Below, piece after piece: positions 5,523 through 44,403 of a stretch of DNA of 64,000 nucleotides. This DNA comes from Cystobacter fuscus (GTDB taxonomy: Bacteria > Myxococcota > Myxococcia > Myxococcales > Myxococcaceae), in assembly GCF_002305875.1 (NCBI RefSeq), contig NZ_CP022098.1, positions 4,836,001 to 4,900,000 of the forward strand. Direction: 5' to 3'. Both the position numbers and the translations under genes were made by a program. Positions within the stretch are counted from its first letter, which is position 1, and the number at the start of each line of letters is the position of its first letter. The notes under the pieces were generated by a model, which saw only the letters and a program-made list of their open reading frames with translations, was not told the DNA's origin and did not search any database.

Positions 5523-5604
5523 GCGGGCGAGGCCCACGGACGCGCGGAGTCCACCGGAAAGGGAAGGGGTGAGGAAGGGGCGGGGGCGAAGCGGGGCGGA
5601 GGCG

Positions 5605-7122
5605 TCAGGAGCTGACGCGCACCGTGGTGGTCATCTCGCGGCCCGTGGCCGGATCTCGCGCGCGCATGGTGAGGATGCCTTCCACGTTCACGTCGAAGGT
5701 GATCTCCACCTGCACCGAGCCGGCCTTGGCCGGGCGGATGCCGGAGAAGGTGAACTCGCCGAGCAGATCGTTCCTCGCCACCTGCTCGTGGTCCCCCTGG
5801 AAGATGCGCATGGCCAGCTCGGTCTGGCTGTCGCGGCTGGTGGTGGCCACGAGCTGCTTCGCATTGGGAATGGGCGCGTTGCGCGGGAAGACCGTGTGGA
5901 AGGCCCCTCCGGCGCGCTCCAGGCCAATGGCCATGGGAATCACGTCCAGCAGTTGCAGGCGCAGGCTGGAGTTGTCCTCCAGGCTCTTGGCGTAGAGCGC
6001 CGCGCCCACCGCCACGGCCTCGTCCGGGTGCACGCCCTTGCTCGGCGTCTTGCCGAAGAACTTCGTGAGCCGGTCCTGGACAATCGGCATGCGCGTCTGG
6101 CCGCCCACCAGCAGCACCTCGTCGATGTCCTTGGTGGACAGCCCCGAGTCCACCAGCACCCGCGCCACCATCTGCAGGGTGCGGTCCACCAGGTGGTTCG
6201 TGAGCTGCTCGAGCATCTTGCGCGTGAACTTCATCTCGATGTTCAGGGGCTGGCCCTGCGACGTCATCGTGATGAAGGGGATGTTGAACTGGACGTCGTC
6301 GCGCGCGGACAGGTCGATCTTCGTGCGCTCGGCCAGGTCCTTGATGCGCTGCATCGCCACCGGATCCGTCGCCAGATCGAGGCCCGTCTTGGACGCGAAG
6401 TCCTTGAGCACGTGGTGGATGATGGCGTTGTCGAAGTCGATGCCACCCAGGAACACATCGCCGCCGGTGGCCTTCACCTCGAAGACGCGGTCGCGGATCT
6501 CGATGATGGACACGTCGAAGGTGCCACCCCCGAGGTCATACACGAGCACCTTCTTGTTGACGCTCTTGCCCGCGCCATACGCCAGCGCCGCCGAGGTGGG
6601 CTCGTTGATGATGCGCACCACCTCCAGATCGATCAGCTTGCCCGCCTCCTTCACCGTCTGACGCTGCCGGTCGTTGAAGTACGCGGGCACCGTCACCACC
6701 GCGCGCTTGATGGGCGTCTTGAGGTAGTTGGCGGCCACGTCGCGGATTTTGTTGAGGATCTTCGCGCTGATCTGCTGGAGGGAGAACTCCTTCTTGCCCA
6801 CGTCCAGCAGGACTTCGTTCTTCTTGCCGGGGCGCATCGAGTACGCCACGACCTTCTTCATCTCCGTGACGACGTCGCTCTGGAAGGAGCGCCCCACCAG
6901 CCGCTTGGAGCCGTAGATGGTGTTCTTCGGGTTGAGCTGCCACTGGCGCTTGGCCTCGTAGCCGATGAGCTCGTTGCCCTTGTCGTCGATCGCGAAGATC
7001 GAGGGAATAGTGTACTCGCCTCCTTTGTAGGGGATGAGTTTCACGTTCCCACCGTCCTCGACGATCGCGGCGCACGAGTTGGTCGTGCCGAGGTCGATGC
7101 CGATGATGGGATCCTTTTGCAT
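5605..7122 (-). CDS. Hsp70 (DnaK-like) chaperone lacking the C-terminal lid
   Basis: The N-terminal actin-like ATPase domain is complete: phosphate-1 motif IIGIDLGTTNSC at residues 6-17, VTVPAYFNDRQRQ in the middle, phosphate-2 VLVYDLGGGTFDVS and adenosine motif VLLVGGQTRMP. The interdomain linker leads into a beta-type substrate-binding domain ending TMRARDPATGREMTTTVRVSS. The chain stops there at 505 residues, whereas DnaK has a further helical lid of about 100 residues. It is therefore a specialised, lidless paralogue, not the main cell chaperone. Myxobacteria carry several such paralogues, some linked to motility and development (SglK in Myxococcus is one), but orthology cannot be claimed. 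It diverges from the PrkA gene across 347 bp and has no DnaJ or GrpE beside it. Confidence 0.9.
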   Translation of the reverse strand: MQKDPIIGIDLGTTNSCAAIVEDGGNVKLIPYKGGEYTIPSIFAIDDKGNELIGYEAKRQWQLNPKNTIYGSKRLVGRSFQSDVVTEMKKVVAYSMRPGKKNEVLLDVGKKEFSLQQISAKILNKIRDVAANYLKTPIKRAVVTVPAYFNDRQRQTVKEAGKLIDLEVVRIINEPTSAALAYGAGKSVNKKVLVYDLGGGTFDVSIIEIRDRVFEVKATGGDVFLGGIDFDNAIIHHVLKDFASKTGLDLATDPVAMQRIKDLAERTKIDLSARDDVQFNIPFITMTSQGQPLNIEMKFTRKMLEQLTNHLVDRTLQMVARVLVDSGLSTKDIDEVLLVGGQTRMPIVQDRLTKFFGKTPSKGVHPDEAVAVGAALYAKSLEDNSSLRLQLLDVIPMAIGLERAGGAFHTVFPRNAPIPNAKQLVATTSRDSQTELAMRIFQGDHEQVARNDLLGEFTFSGIRPAKAGSVQVEITFDVNVEGILTMRARDPATGREMTTTVRVSS

Positions 7123-7469
7123 CGCGCGTGAACTCCGGGGAAGTGGGCGGCGGGGCGGGGGGCGCGCCCCCGCTTATCAAGTCGCGACGTTAGTGCAACT
7201 TCACGGGAGCGCGCGAGCGCGAGGTCTCCTTTGGCCCGTCGGAGGGGGAGGCGCCAGGGGGCGGGAGCCGGTGGGACGGGGGACGAGCCCGCCCGGGGGG
7301 TGGGGGGAGGGCCGGCGGAGAGCAAGGCCCCGGACACAAAGCGACGAGGACCCTGGACTTCGCGCGGGCCGGGAGGAAAGGTCTGAGGGCCCCCGGCGTT
7401 TCGTGGCGGCGGCCCGCCCAGGTTGATTCGAGTGGGTTCCCAACATCCAGGCATAGGAGGAGAAGACCC
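7123..7469. other. 347-bp divergent intergenic region between hsp70-like and prkA genes
   Basis: This stretch must hold the promoters of two divergent genes. It is extremely G+C-rich with long purine/pyrimidine tracts. I see a strong ribosome site (TAGGAGGAGA, 7454-7463) for prkA but no convincing -35/-10 or -24/-12 pair, no RNA gene and no credible small gene. Confidence 0.5.
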
Positions 7470-9731
7470 GTGGAAGCCAAACGATACCTGCAGGAAGTGG
7501 GCGCCCAGGTGTCAGACGACTTCGTCAAGAACCGCTCCATCCTCTCCTTCGAGGAGTACCTCACGCTCTTCATGGCGGAGCCTCGAGGCCAGGCGCGCAA
7601 TGCCGCCCAGTACTTGCGCGACGTGATGGACTCCTTCGGCACGGAGACCGTGACGCACCCCACCGGGAAGATGCGCCGCTTCAAGGTCTTCGACGTGCCC
7701 GCCAGCGACCGGGACGGCCGGGTCGCGGGCCAGGAGGAGGTGCAGAACGCCGTCTACCGGATGCTCGGCAACTTCACGCGCGCCGGCCGCATCAACAAGC
7801 TCATCATGATGCACGGCCCCAACGGCAGCGCGAAGTCCACCTTCGTCAACGCCCTCAAGGCCGGCATGGAGCACTACTCGCGCCAGTCCGAGGGGGCGCT
7901 CTACCACATCAGCTGGATCTTCCCCTCGGAGAAGCTCGTCAAGGGCTCCATCGGCTTTGGCGGCGAGCGCATTCCCGCCACCAGCGGGGACCTGTCCACC
8001 TACGCGCACCTGGACGCCGACTCCATCGACGTGCGCATCCCGTGCGAGCTGAGGGATCCCCCCCTCTTCGCCATTCCCCCCTCCGAGCGCCAGCGCCTGC
8101 TGGAGGGCGCGCTCAAGAAGAAGGGCGTGGGCACGGGAGACGGGCAGGGCGAGGGCGACTTCGTCCTCTCCGACTTCATCCTGCACGGAGAGCTGTGCCA
8201 CAAGTGCCGCAGCATCTACACGGCGCTCCTGGCCAACTACAAGGGCGACTACATGCAGGTGATGCGCCACGTGCGCGTCGAGCGCTTCTACATCTCGCGC
8301 CGCTACCAGGAGGGCACGGTGACGGTGGAGCCGCAGATGAGCGTGGACGCCATGTACCAGCAGGTGTCCGCGGACCGGGCCAAGCTGCTCAACATGCCGC
8401 CCGCGCTGCACAACGTGGCGCTCTTCGAGCCCCAGGGCGCGCTCGTGCACGCCAACCGCGGCCTCATCGAGTACTCGGACCTGCTCAAGCGCCCGCTGGA
8501 GGCCTTCAAGTACCTCCTGGGCTTCAGCGAGACGGCGCAGGTGCCGCTCGAGCACTTCGTGCTGCAGCTCGACGAGGTGCTCCTCGCCTCGTCCAACGAG
8601 AAGCACCTGGGCGCCTTCAAGGAGCTGCCCGACTTCGCCTCGTTCAAGGGCCGCATCGAGCTGGTGCGCGTGCCCTACCTGCGCCGCTACAAGGCGGAGC
8701 AGCAGGTGTACGACGCGCAGATCACCCCCACCACCGTGGGCAAGCACGTGGCCCCGCATGCCACCGCGGTGGCCGCCATGTGGGCCGTGCTCACGCGCCT
8801 GAAGAAGCCCATCCCCGACCGCTACCCGCCCGGGGTCAAGGAGCTGGTGGATCAGATCACCCCGGTGGAGAAGATGTTCCTGTACGAGGACGGGGTGGTG
8901 CCCGACAGGCTCAGCCTCGCGCACGGCAAGGAGCTGCGAAAGCTGCGCGCGGACATGTACGAGGAGTCCGACGCCTACCCCAACTACGAGGGCCGCAGCG
9001 GCGCGAGCGCCCGGGAGATCAAGACGGCGCTGTTCAACGCCGCGCAGCACCCGGACTACAAGTGCCTGCACGCGCTCGCGGTGTTCGAGGAGCTGGAGGC
9101 CATCTGCAAGGACAAGAGCGTCTACGAGTTCCTCCTGCAGGAGGTGGTGGACGGCTACCATGACCACGAGGAGTTCGTGCGCGCGGTGCAGGCCACCTAC
9201 CTGGACAAGGTGGACGAGGAGGTGCGCGAGTCCATGGGCCTCGTCTCCGAGGGGCAGTACCGCGAGCTCGTCGAGCGCTACGTCTACAACGTGAGCCACT
9301 GGGTGAAGGGCGAGAAGATCCGCAACCGCCACACCGGTGCCATGGAGCGCGTGGACGAGCAGCGCATGGCGGAGATGGAGGCCATCGTCATGCCCAAGGG
9401 CGAGGATCCGGGCGAGTTCCGCCGGGGGCTCATCTCGCAGATCGGCGCGCACAAGCTCGACCATCCGGACGACGCGGAGATGGACTACCCGCGCATCTTC
9501 CCGGACCTGTTCCGCCGCCTGCGCGACCACTACTTCGAGGAGCGCAAGCGCGTGCTGCGCCGCAACAAGGAGAACGTCCTCAAGTACCTCTCCGAGGACC
9601 GCGGCACCCTGTCCGCGCGCGAGCAGGCCCAGGTGGAGAGCACCCTGAAGACGATGAGCGAGCGCTACGGCTACTGCGAGCACTGCGCCAAGGACGCCAT
9701 CCTCTTCCTCATGAAGAAGCGCTACGGCTGA
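7470..9731 (+). CDS. prkA: PrkA-family AAA+ serine protein kinase/ATPase
   Basis: A 753-residue PrkA/YeaG homologue. The AAA+ part begins after about 80 residues with Walker A GPNGSAKST at 116-124, and the protein is co-linear with PrkA up to a C-terminal helical kinase-like domain. PrkA proteins respond to starvation and sporulation; reported activities include Ser phosphorylation and, more recently, proteolysis in Bacillus, so the biochemical label is uncertain. Two CxxC pairs, Cys243/Cys246 and Cys736/Cys739, could bind metal. The usual neighbours, a YeaH/YhbH (DUF444) gene and a SpoVR gene, are absent here. The start is a GTG with an excellent AGGAGG site 7 bases upstream. The chain is longer than the roughly 640 residues of enterobacterial YeaG, mostly in internal insertions. 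Confidence 0.93.
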   Translation: MEAKRYLQEVGAQVSDDFVKNRSILSFEEYLTLFMAEPRGQARNAAQYLRDVMDSFGTETVTHPTGKMRRFKVFDVPASDRDGRVAGQEEVQNAVYRMLGNFTRAGRINKLIMMHGPNGSAKSTFVNALKAGMEHYSRQSEGALYHISWIFPSEKLVKGSIGFGGERIPATSGDLSTYAHLDADSIDVRIPCELRDPPLFAIPPSERQRLLEGALKKKGVGTGDGQGEGDFVLSDFILHGELCHKCRSIYTALLANYKGDYMQVMRHVRVERFYISRRYQEGTVTVEPQMSVDAMYQQVSADRAKLLNMPPALHNVALFEPQGALVHANRGLIEYSDLLKRPLEAFKYLLGFSETAQVPLEHFVLQLDEVLLASSNEKHLGAFKELPDFASFKGRIELVRVPYLRRYKAEQQVYDAQITPTTVGKHVAPHATAVAAMWAVLTRLKKPIPDRYPPGVKELVDQITPVEKMFLYEDGVVPDRLSLAHGKELRKLRADMYEESDAYPNYEGRSGASAREIKTALFNAAQHPDYKCLHALAVFEELEAICKDKSVYEFLLQEVVDGYHDHEEFVRAVQATYLDKVDEEVRESMGLVSEGQYRELVERYVYNVSHWVKGEKIRNRHTGAMERVDEQRMAEMEAIVMPKGEDPGEFRRGLISQIGAHKLDHPDDAEMDYPRIFPDLFRRLRDHYFEERKRVLRRNKENVLKYLSEDRGTLSAREQAQVESTLKTMSERYGYCEHCAKDAILFLMKKRYG

Positions 9732-39900: not shown

Positions 39901-40266
39901 GTGCCACCAGCCGCGCGAGTCGGAGACATCCAATCCTGTCCCTTGGTGAATCCAGGACCCACTCCACACGTGGGGGGTCCCATCACTTCGGGTGAGAACA
40001 CTGTACTCATCGAGAGTCGCCCCGCTGCCCGAGTAGGTGATCCGGCGTTGTGTACGGGCGTCGGGGCCGAGGCCAAGACGGGCTCGGGTGCCTCTACCGT
40101 TATCATCGGTAACCAGAAGGCGGCGCGCCTGGGAGATACCTTGTGCCATGGCGGCAAGATCGTCTCGGGAGCGGCGACAGTATTCATTGGCGATGAGTCA
40201 TACAGCGCGATGAGCGCGGCTCGCGACAACGCCGCTCCCTTCGTTAGCATCGACATGGCCGAGTGA
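39901..40266 (+). CDS. PAAR-domain spike protein
   Basis: A 121-residue PAAR protein. PAAR proteins cap the VgrG spike of the type VI secretion needle and recruit effectors. It starts PPAARVGD and holds repeats of the type PAARVGD, TVLIE and TVIIGNQKAARLGD, with CxxG-type Cys/His ligands (CPLVN, CTGVG, CHGG) that fit the zinc site at the tip. A short insert GVGAEAKTGSGA interrupts the domain. The start is a GTG at 39901 with GGGAGG nine bases upstream; an ATG at 39763 would add a 46-residue tail with no family match. The next gene, rhs, follows after 48 bp and is the likely cargo. Confidence 0.88.
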   Translation: MPPAARVGDIQSCPLVNPGPTPHVGGPITSGENTVLIESRPAARVGDPALCTGVGAEAKTGSGASTVIIGNQKAARLGDTLCHGGKIVSGAATVFIGDESYSAMSAARDNAAPFVSIDMAE

Positions 40267-40314
40267 TGTCCTCCGGTCTTCTATTTCGCCCAACAGGTCT
40301 CTGGGAGAGCGAAT

Positions 40315-43300
40315 ATGCCAACTCCACCGGTGAGCTCCGCGTCGTGGCTCAATGCCTCGGCGATTGGTGATGATGAGCTCCTCAGGGAAAGCCGGCGAGG
40401 CTCGCTCTTCGCCGTGCTCGATTCCTGTGGCAGTCCGGAAGTGCTTGCGCAGGTGTCTTCCCTGGGCATCGATCGGGCCTGTTGCTTGTACAAGGGCTCG
40501 GCAGCCAACAATTTCGCTGAACAGGCTCCCTACCTCGTCCAGGTGGACGAAGAACGGTTGCGATGGATCCTCCGCGATCTTTCAGGCCGGCCGTGGGGCA
40601 TATTCGTTCATGCCCAGGCCCCGTTCGCCGAGGTCTTCAGTCACCTTCGCAAGTTCCTGACAGTCGACTCGCCAGCGGGTGAGCGCTGGCTCTTCCGGTA
40701 CTACGATCCGCGTATCCTCCGTGCGTTCCTTCCGGTTTGCACCGTCGGGGAATTGGAGGACTTCTTTGGCCAATTCGCGGCCTTCTCGGTTTTCTCCCAG
40801 GCAGAAGGTGGTCAGAGATTTCAGCGGCCGTCCTCTGGATACCTGAAGGCCGTCAGCCCCTGGCCCGTAGGCAAGCGCTTCCGCATGCGCGAGTCCCACG
40901 TCGTTGCCTTCCAGCCGCTCGTGAATCAGCACGTTCCCGAGCGACTCCTGAAGCTCCTTCGTGAACAAGGGCACACCGTCTGGCGGGAATCCTCCACTGG
41001 CGATCTCGTTGGGCACGATGCCCTGAACCACCAGACACGAATCTCCTTCGGACCCGGCTTCCTCCCCCAGAAACTGGTGACCCCGGCAGGTTCAATCTAT
41101 GGGCTCGAGAACGATTCGAAAGGCAGACTGCGTACGGTCGTGCTCCCGGATGGCGAACGCTTCGAGCTTGGACGTGACGTTCGTGACCGGCTCATCTCCG
41201 CCAGCCACGTGGGTGTTTCCACTTACCAGTTCAGCTACGACGAGCAGGATCGCCTCCAGAGCATCCTCCATCCTGACGGAATAAAGGAGGAATGGGAGTA
41301 CGCCGAGGGGGGCCGGGTGACGGAGTGGCGGGAGCGGTCGGGAGCGGTTCGGCGCTATGGCTACGATGCGAAGGGGCAACTCCAGTGCTCCATTGATCCG
41401 CTGGGGCGCCGGACACTTCTCGACTTTGACGATCAGAGCAACCTCGCATCCATCTCCTATCCAGACGGCTCGCAAGAGTTTTTCTCGTACGATCCGATCG
41501 AGCGGACAGCCGTCATGACCGGGAGGGACGGGAAGCCCGTCCTACGGAGACTGGATGAGCGTGCGAATATCCGGGAGATCTGCTGGGCTGATGGCACGAC
41601 CGTGCGTCTGGAGACGGATGAGCTGGGTCGCCTCCTGGCCATCTCCAACCCACACGCCCGAACCGAATACGGCTACGACGCGTCGGGCCGTCTCGAATAC
41701 GAGCGCTCCGGAGATACTACAGTCCAGCATCAGTACGACGAGGCCGGCCGCCTGGTCGCCTCGCTCGCGGAACCTGGGCCCTCCACCCATTACGAATACG
41801 ACGCTGATGGAAAGCTGCTGTGCGTCCGGGCCTGGGGAAAGACGGTCTCTTTCGAGTACACGTCCACGGGAAGACTCGAGCGTTTGCGCTACGGCGACTC
41901 CCTCCAGGAAGAGCGAGAGTACGCGCGTGGCCGGCGACTGACCCATGCCCGGGTCACAGCTTGCTCGGGCCACAGCCTGGGTGAGCAGCGCTATCTCTAC
42001 GACACCTGTGATCGGCTGGTAGCGCTCTTCTCGCGGGAGTTCGAAACGCCGTGGAGCGAGCGCTCGTTCGAATATGACCGGGGCGGCAGGTTGCTTGCCG
42101 AGTCGGTCGGCCAGAATGGCACGGTCCTGCGCTCCGTCAGGTATGGCCATGATGCCAATGGGAATCTCATTCGGGACGGCGATACGCTCCGGAAGATTGG
42201 CCTCATGGACGAGGTCGTCATCCACGGGAGAAACCCGGTCACCTATGACGCACTGGGGCAAGCGACCCGGGTGCCTGGCAAGAAGGGTGACCTCGGATGC
42301 CAGCATGGGCTGGATGGCACTCTCCAGGAGGTCCGCGCCAACGGCGTGTCGTGGCGGTTCAAGTACGATGCGCTCGGTCGACGGATCGAGGCGACTGATG
42401 GGCAGCGCACCTGGCGCTATGGCTGGTCTGGGCTCCAGTTGATCTGGGAGGAGCTTGTCTCCTCCGCGGAACAGCCTCCGCTCCGCCGGGAGTATCTCTA
42501 CTTGCCGGGTGGCAACACGCCCATCGCCTTCCACGAGGCGGGACGGACGTTCTGGCTGCAACAGGACACGCGAGGCGCTGTCATCTGTGCTTTCGACGAG
42601 GAGGCACGGCTTGTCTGGAAGGCAAGCTATGACTCGTTTGGCCAGGCACGTGTCGAGGTCGGAGAGATTCGCCAGCCCTGGCGTCTTGCTGGCCAATACG
42701 AGGACGAGGGCACCGGGCTCTATTACAATCTGGGACGGTATTATAGCCCCATCCTCAAGTCGTATCTCTCGCGCGACCCCTTCTGGTTCAAGCACGGTGC
42801 GACGGCCTACAGCTACTGCGACAATGATCCCTGGAACCGCATCGATCCGTACGGGCAATGGGCCTGGATCGCGGCGGGGGCTATCATTGGCGCCGTCGTC
42901 AGTGGTGTCATGGCGGCAAGTGAGGGCAAGAGTCCGCTAGAGATCGCCGCCGCCGCGCTCGAGGGGGCTGTCGTTGGTGCGGCGTTCGCGGTCAATCCCT
43001 GGTTGGGGGCTGGCGCCATGATGGCGGCGGACGTGCTCCACCAAGGATTGGAAAATGGCTGGTCGAACGTTTGCATCGCCTGTGCTGCAGCCAAGGCCCT
43101 CATCACGCTGGCGGGAGGTTGGATACTGGGGCGGCTCGCGGGCTTCATCGGCCGCGGCATCGTGCGGAGCGTGGGCAGCACCAAACTGGCTTCCACTATT
43201 GGTTCCTGGTTGCCGCGGTGGGCTCTACGGCCTTGGGGATTGCCAAAATCCCTCCGGGGATATCTGATCGAAGGACACCTCGGGGGAAAACTGCCCTACG

Positions 43301-43611
43301 GATTCCCTGTCATCGACAAGTTCTCCAGAGGCGTGGCAACCAGCATCAAGTCCATTAATTTGCGAGCCGCGACCTATCAAAATCCATCTCGACTCTCGTC
43401 GTTGCTCAACGGGTATGTCAACAAACTCGCGAACTTCCGTGGAGCTTCTCGGATGGGCCAGACCATCAGCCAGAGCCAAATTCAGTCTCGCGTCCTCGAA
43501 GTCGTCATCCCAAAGGGGGCAGTGAGCCCAGCCCAGCAACAGGTCATCAACCAAGCAATCCAAAATGCCAATAGCCGTGGCATTCTGATGAAGGTGATTG
43601 AGATTCGATGA
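40315..43611 (+). CDS. Rhs toxin with N-terminal DUF4123 and C-terminal CdiA-CT-like nuclease
   Basis: A 1098-residue Rhs (YD-repeat) polymorphic toxin. Residues about 25-150 look like a DUF4123 (Tap-1/TEC) adaptor domain: SLFAVLDSCG, YLVQVDEE, GIFVHAQAPFAEVFSHLRKFL, WLFRYYDPR. About 240-850 are YD repeats (e.g. RTEYGYDASGRLEYERSGD) with the core-closing YSYCDNDPWNRIDPYGQ. After a hydrophobic stretch (about 850-910, IAAGAIIGAVVSG) comes the toxin. Its last 120 residues show YLIEGHLGG, PVIDKF and VATSIKSINL, giving candidate Glu986, Asp1001, Ser1010 and Lys1012 as in CdiA-CT nucleases of the Bp1026b type (PD-(D/E)XK fold). That match is from memory, not a search. The Rhs cage would hold the toxin until delivery. 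The stop overlaps the immunity gene. Confidence 0.85.
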   Translation: MPTPPVSSASWLNASAIGDDELLRESRRGSLFAVLDSCGSPEVLAQVSSLGIDRACCLYKGSAANNFAEQAPYLVQVDEERLRWILRDLSGRPWGIFVHAQAPFAEVFSHLRKFLTVDSPAGERWLFRYYDPRILRAFLPVCTVGELEDFFGQFAAFSVFSQAEGGQRFQRPSSGYLKAVSPWPVGKRFRMRESHVVAFQPLVNQHVPERLLKLLREQGHTVWRESSTGDLVGHDALNHQTRISFGPGFLPQKLVTPAGSIYGLENDSKGRLRTVVLPDGERFELGRDVRDRLISASHVGVSTYQFSYDEQDRLQSILHPDGIKEEWEYAEGGRVTEWRERSGAVRRYGYDAKGQLQCSIDPLGRRTLLDFDDQSNLASISYPDGSQEFFSYDPIERTAVMTGRDGKPVLRRLDERANIREICWADGTTVRLETDELGRLLAISNPHARTEYGYDASGRLEYERSGDTTVQHQYDEAGRLVASLAEPGPSTHYEYDADGKLLCVRAWGKTVSFEYTSTGRLERLRYGDSLQEEREYARGRRLTHARVTACSGHSLGEQRYLYDTCDRLVALFSREFETPWSERSFEYDRGGRLLAESVGQNGTVLRSVRYGHDANGNLIRDGDTLRKIGLMDEVVIHGRNPVTYDALGQATRVPGKKGDLGCQHGLDGTLQEVRANGVSWRFKYDALGRRIEATDGQRTWRYGWSGLQLIWEELVSSAEQPPLRREYLYLPGGNTPIAFHEAGRTFWLQQDTRGAVICAFDEEARLVWKASYDSFGQARVEVGEIRQPWRLAGQYEDEGTGLYYNLGRYYSPILKSYLSRDPFWFKHGATAYSYCDNDPWNRIDPYGQWAWIAAGAIIGAVVSGVMAASEGKSPLEIAAAALEGAVVGAAFAVNPWLGAGAMMAADVLHQGLENGWSNVCIACAAAKALITLAGGWILGRLAGFIGRGIVRSVGSTKLASTIGSWLPRWALRPWGLPKSLRGYLIEGHLGGKLPYGFPVIDKFSRGVATSIKSINLRAATYQNPSRLSSLLNGYVNKLANFRGASRMGQTISQSQIQSRVLEVVIPKGAVSPAQQQVINQAIQNANSRGILMKVIEIR

Positions 43612-44063
43612 GCGCTTCTGCACAAAGTATTCAGGTCTATTTTTTTGAGAATCGCTTCTACGTCCCAGATGTCGGGCGGACGATGGATGACGTTTCCGTG
43701 GATATCGAGCCAGTCCGTGCTGTCGAGATGGCGGACGTGGCAGGGTTGGCTGGCGCGCTTCAAGCCACGATCGAGCGTGGCAATCCGCGAATCCCCACTC
43801 CCAACCGCAACACCTACGAGCCCATCATCATCAAGGCATCCGGTGCGAAGAACTGGCGGGATTTCGAGAAGCGTGCCCTCTGCTTCATGATTACGCACCT
43901 GCCCGATCGCTTCGAACTCGTCCCCTCGAAGCGTACTCGGGGGGGCAAGTGGGACTTCAATCATTCTGACATAGGAAGCCTGCCTGGCACTGCGGCCCCG
44001 AAGACGCTTGCCGAGTGGCTGGTGAACCATGTGAAATCGGTAGGGGGCTCGGCTTCCACCTGA
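43608..44063 (+). CDS. probable immunity protein for the Rhs toxin
   Basis: A 151-residue soluble protein with no recognised family (start SIQVYFFENRFYVPD, later YEPIIIKASGAKNWRDFEK and WDFNHSDIGSLPG). Its ATG lies in the last codons of rhs (ATGA overlap, 43608-43611), and its base composition is lower in GC than most of the window, like the toxin tip. This order, toxin then small overlapping gene, is the standard one for immunity genes of polymorphic toxins, and immunity is the inference. Acidic and aromatic residues suit binding a basic nuclease. Confidence 0.75.
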   Translation: MSASAQSIQVYFFENRFYVPDVGRTMDDVSVDIEPVRAVEMADVAGLAGALQATIERGNPRIPTPNRNTYEPIIIKASGAKNWRDFEKRALCFMITHLPDRFELVPSKRTRGGKWDFNHSDIGSLPGTAAPKTLAEWLVNHVKSVGGSAST

Positions 44064-44403
44064 GTCCCGCTCACCCTCACGAGCAAGGCTCAGGGCTGGG
44101 TCGCTTGCAGCGCCGCCACTCCCTCGCGGGAGTTCGCGTCTTCGAGAAGCAGGCGGAAAATAGTGGAGTGCATGGCAGCCGAGTTGGAGATGAGCTTCGA
44201 GGTGGTCTGCCGGCAAGCGGGTACTTCGCTGCTGGTGGCGCGCAGCACGATCGACCTGCGTCGGCTCGCCGCGGTGCGGAACCTGCTCGCGCCGCACGAG
44301 CGGCCCCACTTTGAAAGTCGTATCGTCCACCTGTGCCGTGGGCCGGAATCGCCTTGACCGGGAAGGAGGAGCAGGGGTGCGTCCTGCTCCGCCCGTCAAC
44401 GCC
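44064..44403. other. 340-bp gap after the immunity gene
   Basis: No supported gene. The longest frames (about 60-100 residues on either strand) lack a ribosome site and show no family. It may hold remains of other immunity genes or transposase, but I cannot show it. Confidence 0.35.

Follow-up and report, generated by a model that had tools for sequence, protein, structure and literature searches.

DUF4123 adaptors of the Tap/Tec family have been described as two-lobed proteins: DUF4123 forms the lobe that contacts the C-terminus of VgrG, and the other lobe holds the effector (PMC13133936). Contact with VgrG has been modelled for the DUF4123 lobes of Tla1, Tap6 and Tap14, with mutational support for Tla1 (PMC13133936). 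Secretion of the Rhs effector TseI requires TecI, a DUF4123 chaperone made as its own protein, which binds the Rhs core of TseI (PMC7170923). Tap/Tec DUF4123 adaptors are described as unsecreted (PMC10433429, PMC10673891), and a scan of 130,825 vgrG loci for domains that occur both stand-alone and fused recovered six families, DUF4123 not among them (PMC10673891). Because that scan stopped at the third gene downstream of vgrG, it would miss orphan cassettes such as the one described here.

We analyzed a stretch of 64,000 nucleotides from the soil myxobacterium Cystobacter fuscus (contig NZ_CP022098.1, positions 4,836,001-4,900,000; hereafter the window), which belongs to a genome (G000) assembled as a single 12.35-Mb contig. 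The first-pass annotation had recognized a compact module of a PAAR gene, a DUF4123-Rhs fusion and an overlapping immunity gene, and we find all three genes in place. The features of the module are as follows; L044, L045 and L046 are cassette loci of the same genome.

39901..40266, + strand: PAAR spike-tip protein, 121 aa, a separate gene (Pfam PF05488, E 1.4e-20)
40315..43611, + strand: DUF4123-Rhs-nuclease fusion, 1098 aa (Pfam and NCBIfam domains)
40405..40755, + strand: DUF4123 (Tap/Tec adaptor) domain, residues 31-147 (PF13503)
40756..40872, + strand: fusion linker, residues 148-186, ending near VGKR (the four fusions aligned to stand-alone adaptors and Rhs proteins)
40873..40980, + strand: start of the formerly free-standing Rhs part, residues about 187-222 (matched in alignment by the N-terminal ends of the unfused Rhs proteins of L044, L045, L046, L050 and L094)
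40981..42858, + strand: Rhs/YD-repeat core, residues about 223-848 (PF05593, E 2.2e-35; Rhs_assc_core at 772-848, E 1.6e-18, NCBIfam)
42859..43134, + strand: hydrophobic post-core segment with CxxC (VCIACA, residue 919 on; alignment)
43240..43608, + strand: EC869-CdiA-CT-like PD-(D/E)XK nuclease domain (PF21111 at residues 990-1094, E 2.9e-19)
43608..44063, + strand: probable immunity gene of 151 aa, its start sharing 4 bp with the toxin stop codon

The PAAR reading frame opens with a GTG at 39901, preceded by GGAGGAAG, and the fusion gene starts at an ATG (40315), 48 bp 3' of PAAR, with its own ribosome-binding sequence, GGGAGA. The toxin stop and the immunity start share the tetramer ATGA at 43608-43611. 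DUF4123 is part of the Rhs protein in the window, not a separate small protein between vgrG and effector. Pfam and NCBIfam searches found no PAAR domain in the 1098-residue protein, which is accordingly not a specialized effector of the PAAR-Rhs kind; its YD repeats, Rhs-associated core, exchangeable C-terminus and following immunity gene are those of an Rhs polymorphic toxin. Chance or sequencing error as the source of the fused frame is excluded; the same frame is open in two congeneric species and on a plasmid of Sphingomonas.

The first-pass annotation had placed DUF4123 at about residues 25-150. Pfam confirms the domain, with measured limits of 31-147. PF13503 was matched with E 1.5e-28 in the whole protein, 9.7e-30 in the N-terminal 229 residues and 2.8e-29 in the genome search, and the domain scores 100-105 bits against a curated cut-off of 25.8 bits. 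Its likeness to the Tle1 adaptor Tla1 is weak (E 6e-11; 42 bits, far under the NCBIfam model cut-off of 200), and the family signature around FRYYDPR is retained in the aligned fusions. In Tap/Tec adaptors a helical, effector-binding lobe forms the C-terminus; in the fusion only about 40 residues separate DUF4123 from the Rhs start. The linker ends in VG-x-R in all four fusions, as VGKR in the window and as VGTR or VGER in the others. A short motif in the linker region resembles the segment that follows DUF4123 in the stand-alone protein of L115 (E 0.002 with the whole protein, 0.035 with the stretch). The motif M-x-[IL]-x-x-x-Q-[LM]-x-x-[LF] opens the separate Rhs proteins, its window copy lying at 40873-40980; weakly, the same motif starts genes near DUF4123 (the L047:13650 region, L080:8657-9040 and L097:4859-5251) and lies behind DUF4123 in L115:695-1621. 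It could be a shared docking segment, most of these matches being non-significant.

Downstream, the core retains the DP motifs at D821 and in the D845 region, as RDP at 820 and RIDPYG at 842; the C-terminal self-cleavage motif reads DPYGQ in place of DPxGL, with both DP positions present. A hydrophobic stretch with CxxC follows the core in all nine aligned Rhs proteins (four fused, five unfused) and is a candidate for membrane passage. The variants CIAC, CISC, CWSC, CLMC, CFLC and CLSC occur among the window protein and its eight relatives despite differing toxins behind them. Single-sequence AlphaFold returned mean pLDDT values of 40.8 (residues 1-245) and 37.7 (whole protein), too low to model protein contacts.

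The host genome itself holds unfused counterparts of this architecture. It encodes four further DUF4123 genes, three of them in orphan cassettes with a separate PAAR, an FHA-DUF4123 adaptor and a PAAR-less Rhs protein.

L044:8311-9276: adaptor with Pfam FHA, in a cassette ordered PAAR, FHA-DUF4123, Rhs, Imm49-type immunity
L045:8541-9494: adaptor with Pfam FHA, in a cassette ordered PAAR, Rhs, a gene in the immunity position, FHA-DUF4123
L046:7949-8821: adaptor with Pfam FHA, in a cassette ordered PAAR, FHA-DUF4123, Rhs

The L045-like order recurs in two cassettes of another genome of the genus, G145 (L050 and L052), and the L044-like order in G161, a genome of another genus (L094). The L046 Rhs gene (5582-7939, minus strand) is Gly/Arg-rich directly after the core, in a frameshift-like manner, and is probably a broken gene. 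The six unfused myxobacterial cassettes (L044, L045, L046, L050, L052 and L094) share with the window a homologous PAAR, DUF4123 and Rhs core, variable C-terminal toxins and the lack of an adjoining vgrG in the stretches covered; identity to the window is 44-46% for L044 and L094 and 30-32% for the others. Unlike the window module, they encode the adaptor on its own, and it bears an FHA domain. The unfused Rhs N-termini align from about residue 187 of the window protein, and the unfused adaptors end shortly after DUF4123. Since the adaptor match runs to just past DUF4123 and the Rhs match begins at residue 187, the alignments identify the window gene as a fusion of two neighbors in a PAAR / (FHA-)DUF4123 / Rhs cassette, the adaptor gene and the rhs gene.

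The comparison also moves the emphasis. The first-pass annotation had counted the separate PAAR gene among the unusual features of the module, a view we dropped once the unfused cassettes were compared: none of the five unfused Rhs proteins run against Pfam contains a PAAR domain, and relatives within the same Rhs core group likewise have PAAR as a separate gene, which is thus the norm in this group. What is unusual is the missing gene boundary, which leaves the adaptor fused, and the absence of the FHA domain found in the matching stand-alone adaptors. FHA-DUF4123 adaptors adjoin PAAR genes in three myxobacterial genera. Pfam confirms the FHA domain in L044, L045 and L046, and a homemade profile alone detects it in L047, L050-L052, L081, L082, L084, L090-L092, L094, L095 and L104; Pfam finds no FHA in the L047 adaptor. 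We found no report of an FHA and DUF4123 combination in the literature searched. The presence of FHA on DUF4123 adaptors suggests phospho-controlled effector loading.

We searched 195 Myxococcota genomes, four of them from this genus, and obtained 57 DUF4123 matches in 41 genomes. Three of the 57 are fused, in frames of 1114, 1127 and 2143 codons; all three belong to this genus, where they occupy a different site in each of three of the four genomes. The first-pass annotation had called for a search for other PAAR-less Rhs proteins with an N-terminal DUF4123, and such proteins occur in G141 and G145, both of the same genus, and on a Sphingomonas plasmid. PAAR homologues adjoin the fused gene in all three, and in G141 and G145 the order is PAAR, fusion, then another gene. 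The G141 fusion carries the same nuclease as the window. The G145 fusion (L049:7726-14091, minus strand; 2121 residues) comprises DUF4123, an Rhs core, the hydrophobic segment, DUF6531, a second Rhs unit and a C-terminus of its own, which looks HNH-like by eye only and has no Pfam match. Because the C-terminus differs from that of the window protein behind a constant N-terminal part, the warhead is exchanged in the manner of polymorphic toxins. On the Sphingomonas hankookensis plasmid, PAAR overlaps a 1092-residue DUF4123-Rhs gene followed by a SUFU-family gene, and the record labels the fusion only as a 'DUF4123 domain-containing protein'. Outside Myxococcota the distribution was drawn from the plasmid collection, in which this one fusion was recognized; pattern scans of genome contigs and viral contigs returned pattern matches, among which no DUF4123-Rhs candidate was confirmed.

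The DUF4123 domains of the four fusions cluster in a tree with support 100/98. The Rhs cores of the four do not form one clade, the tree rejecting a common origin of all four genes together with the cores they now carry (AU p 0.0006), and the Sphingomonas Rhs core is 35-39% identical to the L045/L046 type versus 29% to the window. The Sphingomonas DUF4123 forms a long branch, and a tree that unites the three myxobacterial fusions with the FHA adaptors is not rejected (p 0.13). Either two fusion events or the movement of one fused N-terminus between core types would be compatible with these trees. The flanks of the module are 94% identical in G141, with different genes between them, and in G145 the flanking stretches likewise lie near each other with other genes between. 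GC content is 57-64% in the module versus 65-71% around it. The variable content between the flanks and the lower GC thus mark an accessory cassette in a variable locus; we identified neither an integrase nor an insertion-sequence end at the module. A 96-bp stretch behind the cassette (44250-44345) has scattered partial copies of 82-85% identity at other places in the genus, including one right after the cassette of G145, and is possibly a repeat or mobile-element remnant.

The C-terminus matches the PDB entries 4g6u and 4zqu (E about 1.5e-8), and the solved CdiA-CT toxins, both Zn-dependent DNases, have an active site of Glu177, Asp198, Ser209 and Lys211 (PMC9086364). The counterparts in the window protein are E986, D1001, S1010 and K1012, an equivalence based on gapped alignments, with an E-to-D spacing of 15 versus 21 in the solved toxin and a D-to-S spacing of 9 versus 11. 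G141 keeps all four residues, and so does a Rhizobium CdiA with a nuclease 46% identical to that of the window. The C-terminus is thereby predicted to be a DNase of the Zn-dependent type. The 151-residue protein encoded behind it shares 39% identity with the product of the gene that follows this toxin in G141; in a single comparison it is weakly similar to the protein encoded after the Rhizobium CdiA that carries this nuclease (18%, E 2e-4). It has no family match and no convincing homologue among PDB chains. Because of its position, its overlap with the toxin gene and its G141 counterpart, 43608-44063 is probably the immunity gene.

Delivery of this toxin would draw on components encoded elsewhere in the genome. 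The first-pass annotation had noted that neither vgrG nor any T6SS structural gene lies in the window, and whole-genome searches place no VgrG and no TssK there. A T6SS is not missing from the genome, which has a T6SS gene region and eight VgrGs: at about 3.83-3.86 Mb, tssF, tssG, clpV, hcp, tssB, tssC, tssM, tssK and vgrG lie together, each above its NCBIfam cut-off, a confirmed set that excludes tssA, tssE, tssJ and tssL. Two TssK-bearing clusters with sheath-like genes exist besides this main region, in L043 (5.912-5.932 Mb) and L042 (10.48-10.50 Mb); the TssK match in L043 is weak and in two pieces.

Taking these observations together, we think it probable that the fusion protein is a T6SS cargo effector with a built-in VgrG adaptor, encoded in an orphan, horizontally moving cassette. 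The PAAR protein would tip a VgrG spike supplied by a vgrG locus elsewhere in the genome, and the fused DUF4123 would dock on that VgrG, under the cassette's PAAR tip. DUF4123 would be joined directly to a PAAR-less Rhs cage holding the nuclease, and this tether may replace the three-part contact of VgrG, adaptor and effector, allowing loading without a separate chaperone. The adaptor domain would then leave the cell with the cage, the protein remaining whole; the hydrophobic segment may help the nuclease across the target inner membrane, and the third gene would protect kin. VgrG and PAAR binding, adaptor export, DNase activity and immunity are the functions that we infer. Speaking against this explanation are the absence of a vgrG beside the cassette and the departure of the C-terminal cleavage motif from DPxGL.

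Co-export would depart from the family rule, since Tap/Tec adaptors are described as unsecreted, and it would follow because adaptor and cargo are one polypeptide, provided that no N-terminal cleavage removes the adaptor. Such a cleavage is the basis of an alternative in which DUF4123 loads the toxin and the N-terminal piece is then cut off before or during firing, so that the adaptor stays in the cell, in keeping with the description of Tap/Tec proteins as unsecreted (PMC10433429) and with the N-terminal self-cleavage of other T6SS Rhs effectors such as TseI (PMC7170923). However, the window protein has no DUF6531 match and no TseI-type PVSMVTG, and the myxobacterial fusions have ESSTG, EPATG and ASTRD in its place at the core start, which argues against N-terminal self-cleavage as judged from sequence. 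Even the cleaved N-terminal part of TseI is still co-secreted (PMC7170923), and we regard an adaptor left behind as unlikely. Instead of acting as a VgrG adaptor, the fused domain might chaperone or plug the Rhs cage from within the same chain, with loading left to the PAAR protein. The module does have its own PAAR gene, and TecI, as a separate DUF4123 protein, does bind an Rhs core (PMC7170923); but the DUF4123 lobes of Tla1, Tap6 and Tap14 were modelled on VgrG, with mutational support for Tla1 (PMC13133936), and the fused domain retains the family signature, which makes a purely internal role quite improbable.

Delivery by a non-T6SS route, for example by an extracellular contractile injection system or at the cell surface, seems to us very improbable. 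The orphan position of the cassette would suit it, PAAR proteins occur with extracellular contractile injection systems too (PMC8651086), and in M. xanthus large Rhs proteins with signal peptides function independently of a T6SS. The genome nevertheless has T6SS genes as well as eight vgrGs, the literature consulted treats DUF4123 as a family of T6SS adaptors, and the protein begins with DUF4123, with no signal peptide found by inspection. A T6SS effector that carries its own adaptor therefore stays our preferred explanation.

We found no report of a DUF4123-Rhs fusion, as common or otherwise, in the open literature searched; an earlier report outside that search is possible. We tentatively suggest that DUF4123 may now be a permanent exported weapon part in two or more lineages of Rhs core, spread over two phyla, and that the lack of FHA may free loading from phospho-control. 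Export of the adaptor, if true, would be new for the DUF4123 family. This natural fusion makes the rule that DUF4123 adaptors stay in the cell directly testable, with the unfused cassettes of the same genome as matched controls, and it offers a ready-made single-chain form for studying how an Rhs cage docks on the spike. Moreover, it identifies the adaptor and rhs genes as a partner pair and marks orphan cassettes that vgrG-anchored scans would miss. The anatomy is solid, the origin is clear and the departure from the accepted view is testable; the functions proposed are predictions.

Among known systems, TseI/TecI/TsiI of Aeromonas dhakensis (PMC7170923) is alike in its PAAR-less Rhs effector, a DUF4123 chaperone that binds the Rhs core, a DNase C-terminus and an immunity start that overlaps the toxin stop. 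TecI is, however, a separate gene in the hcp1/vgrG1 operon, whereas DUF4123 in the window is an N-terminus encoded behind a PAAR gene without hcp or vgrG; and where TseI has its own VgrG-binding N-terminus with self-cleavage sites, the window protein has DUF4123. The CdiA-CT toxins of the E. coli TA271/EC869 type and of Y. pseudotuberculosis YPIII (4g6u, 4zqu) share the PD-(D/E)XK family and the four active-site residues, but are delivered by CdiB/CdiA two-partner secretion with no Rhs cage, and their immunity proteins are not detectably alike by sequence. RIX adaptors and MIX co-effectors (PMC10435454, PMC10673891) resemble the fused DUF4123 as exported loading domains, stand-alone or toxin-fused, yet they are other domain families, and DUF4123 is ranked there with the classical unsecreted adaptors. 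Finally, DUF4123 has been described at the C-terminus of specialized effectors as a presumed loader of other cargo (PMC11148199), whereas in the window it is N-terminal on the toxin itself.
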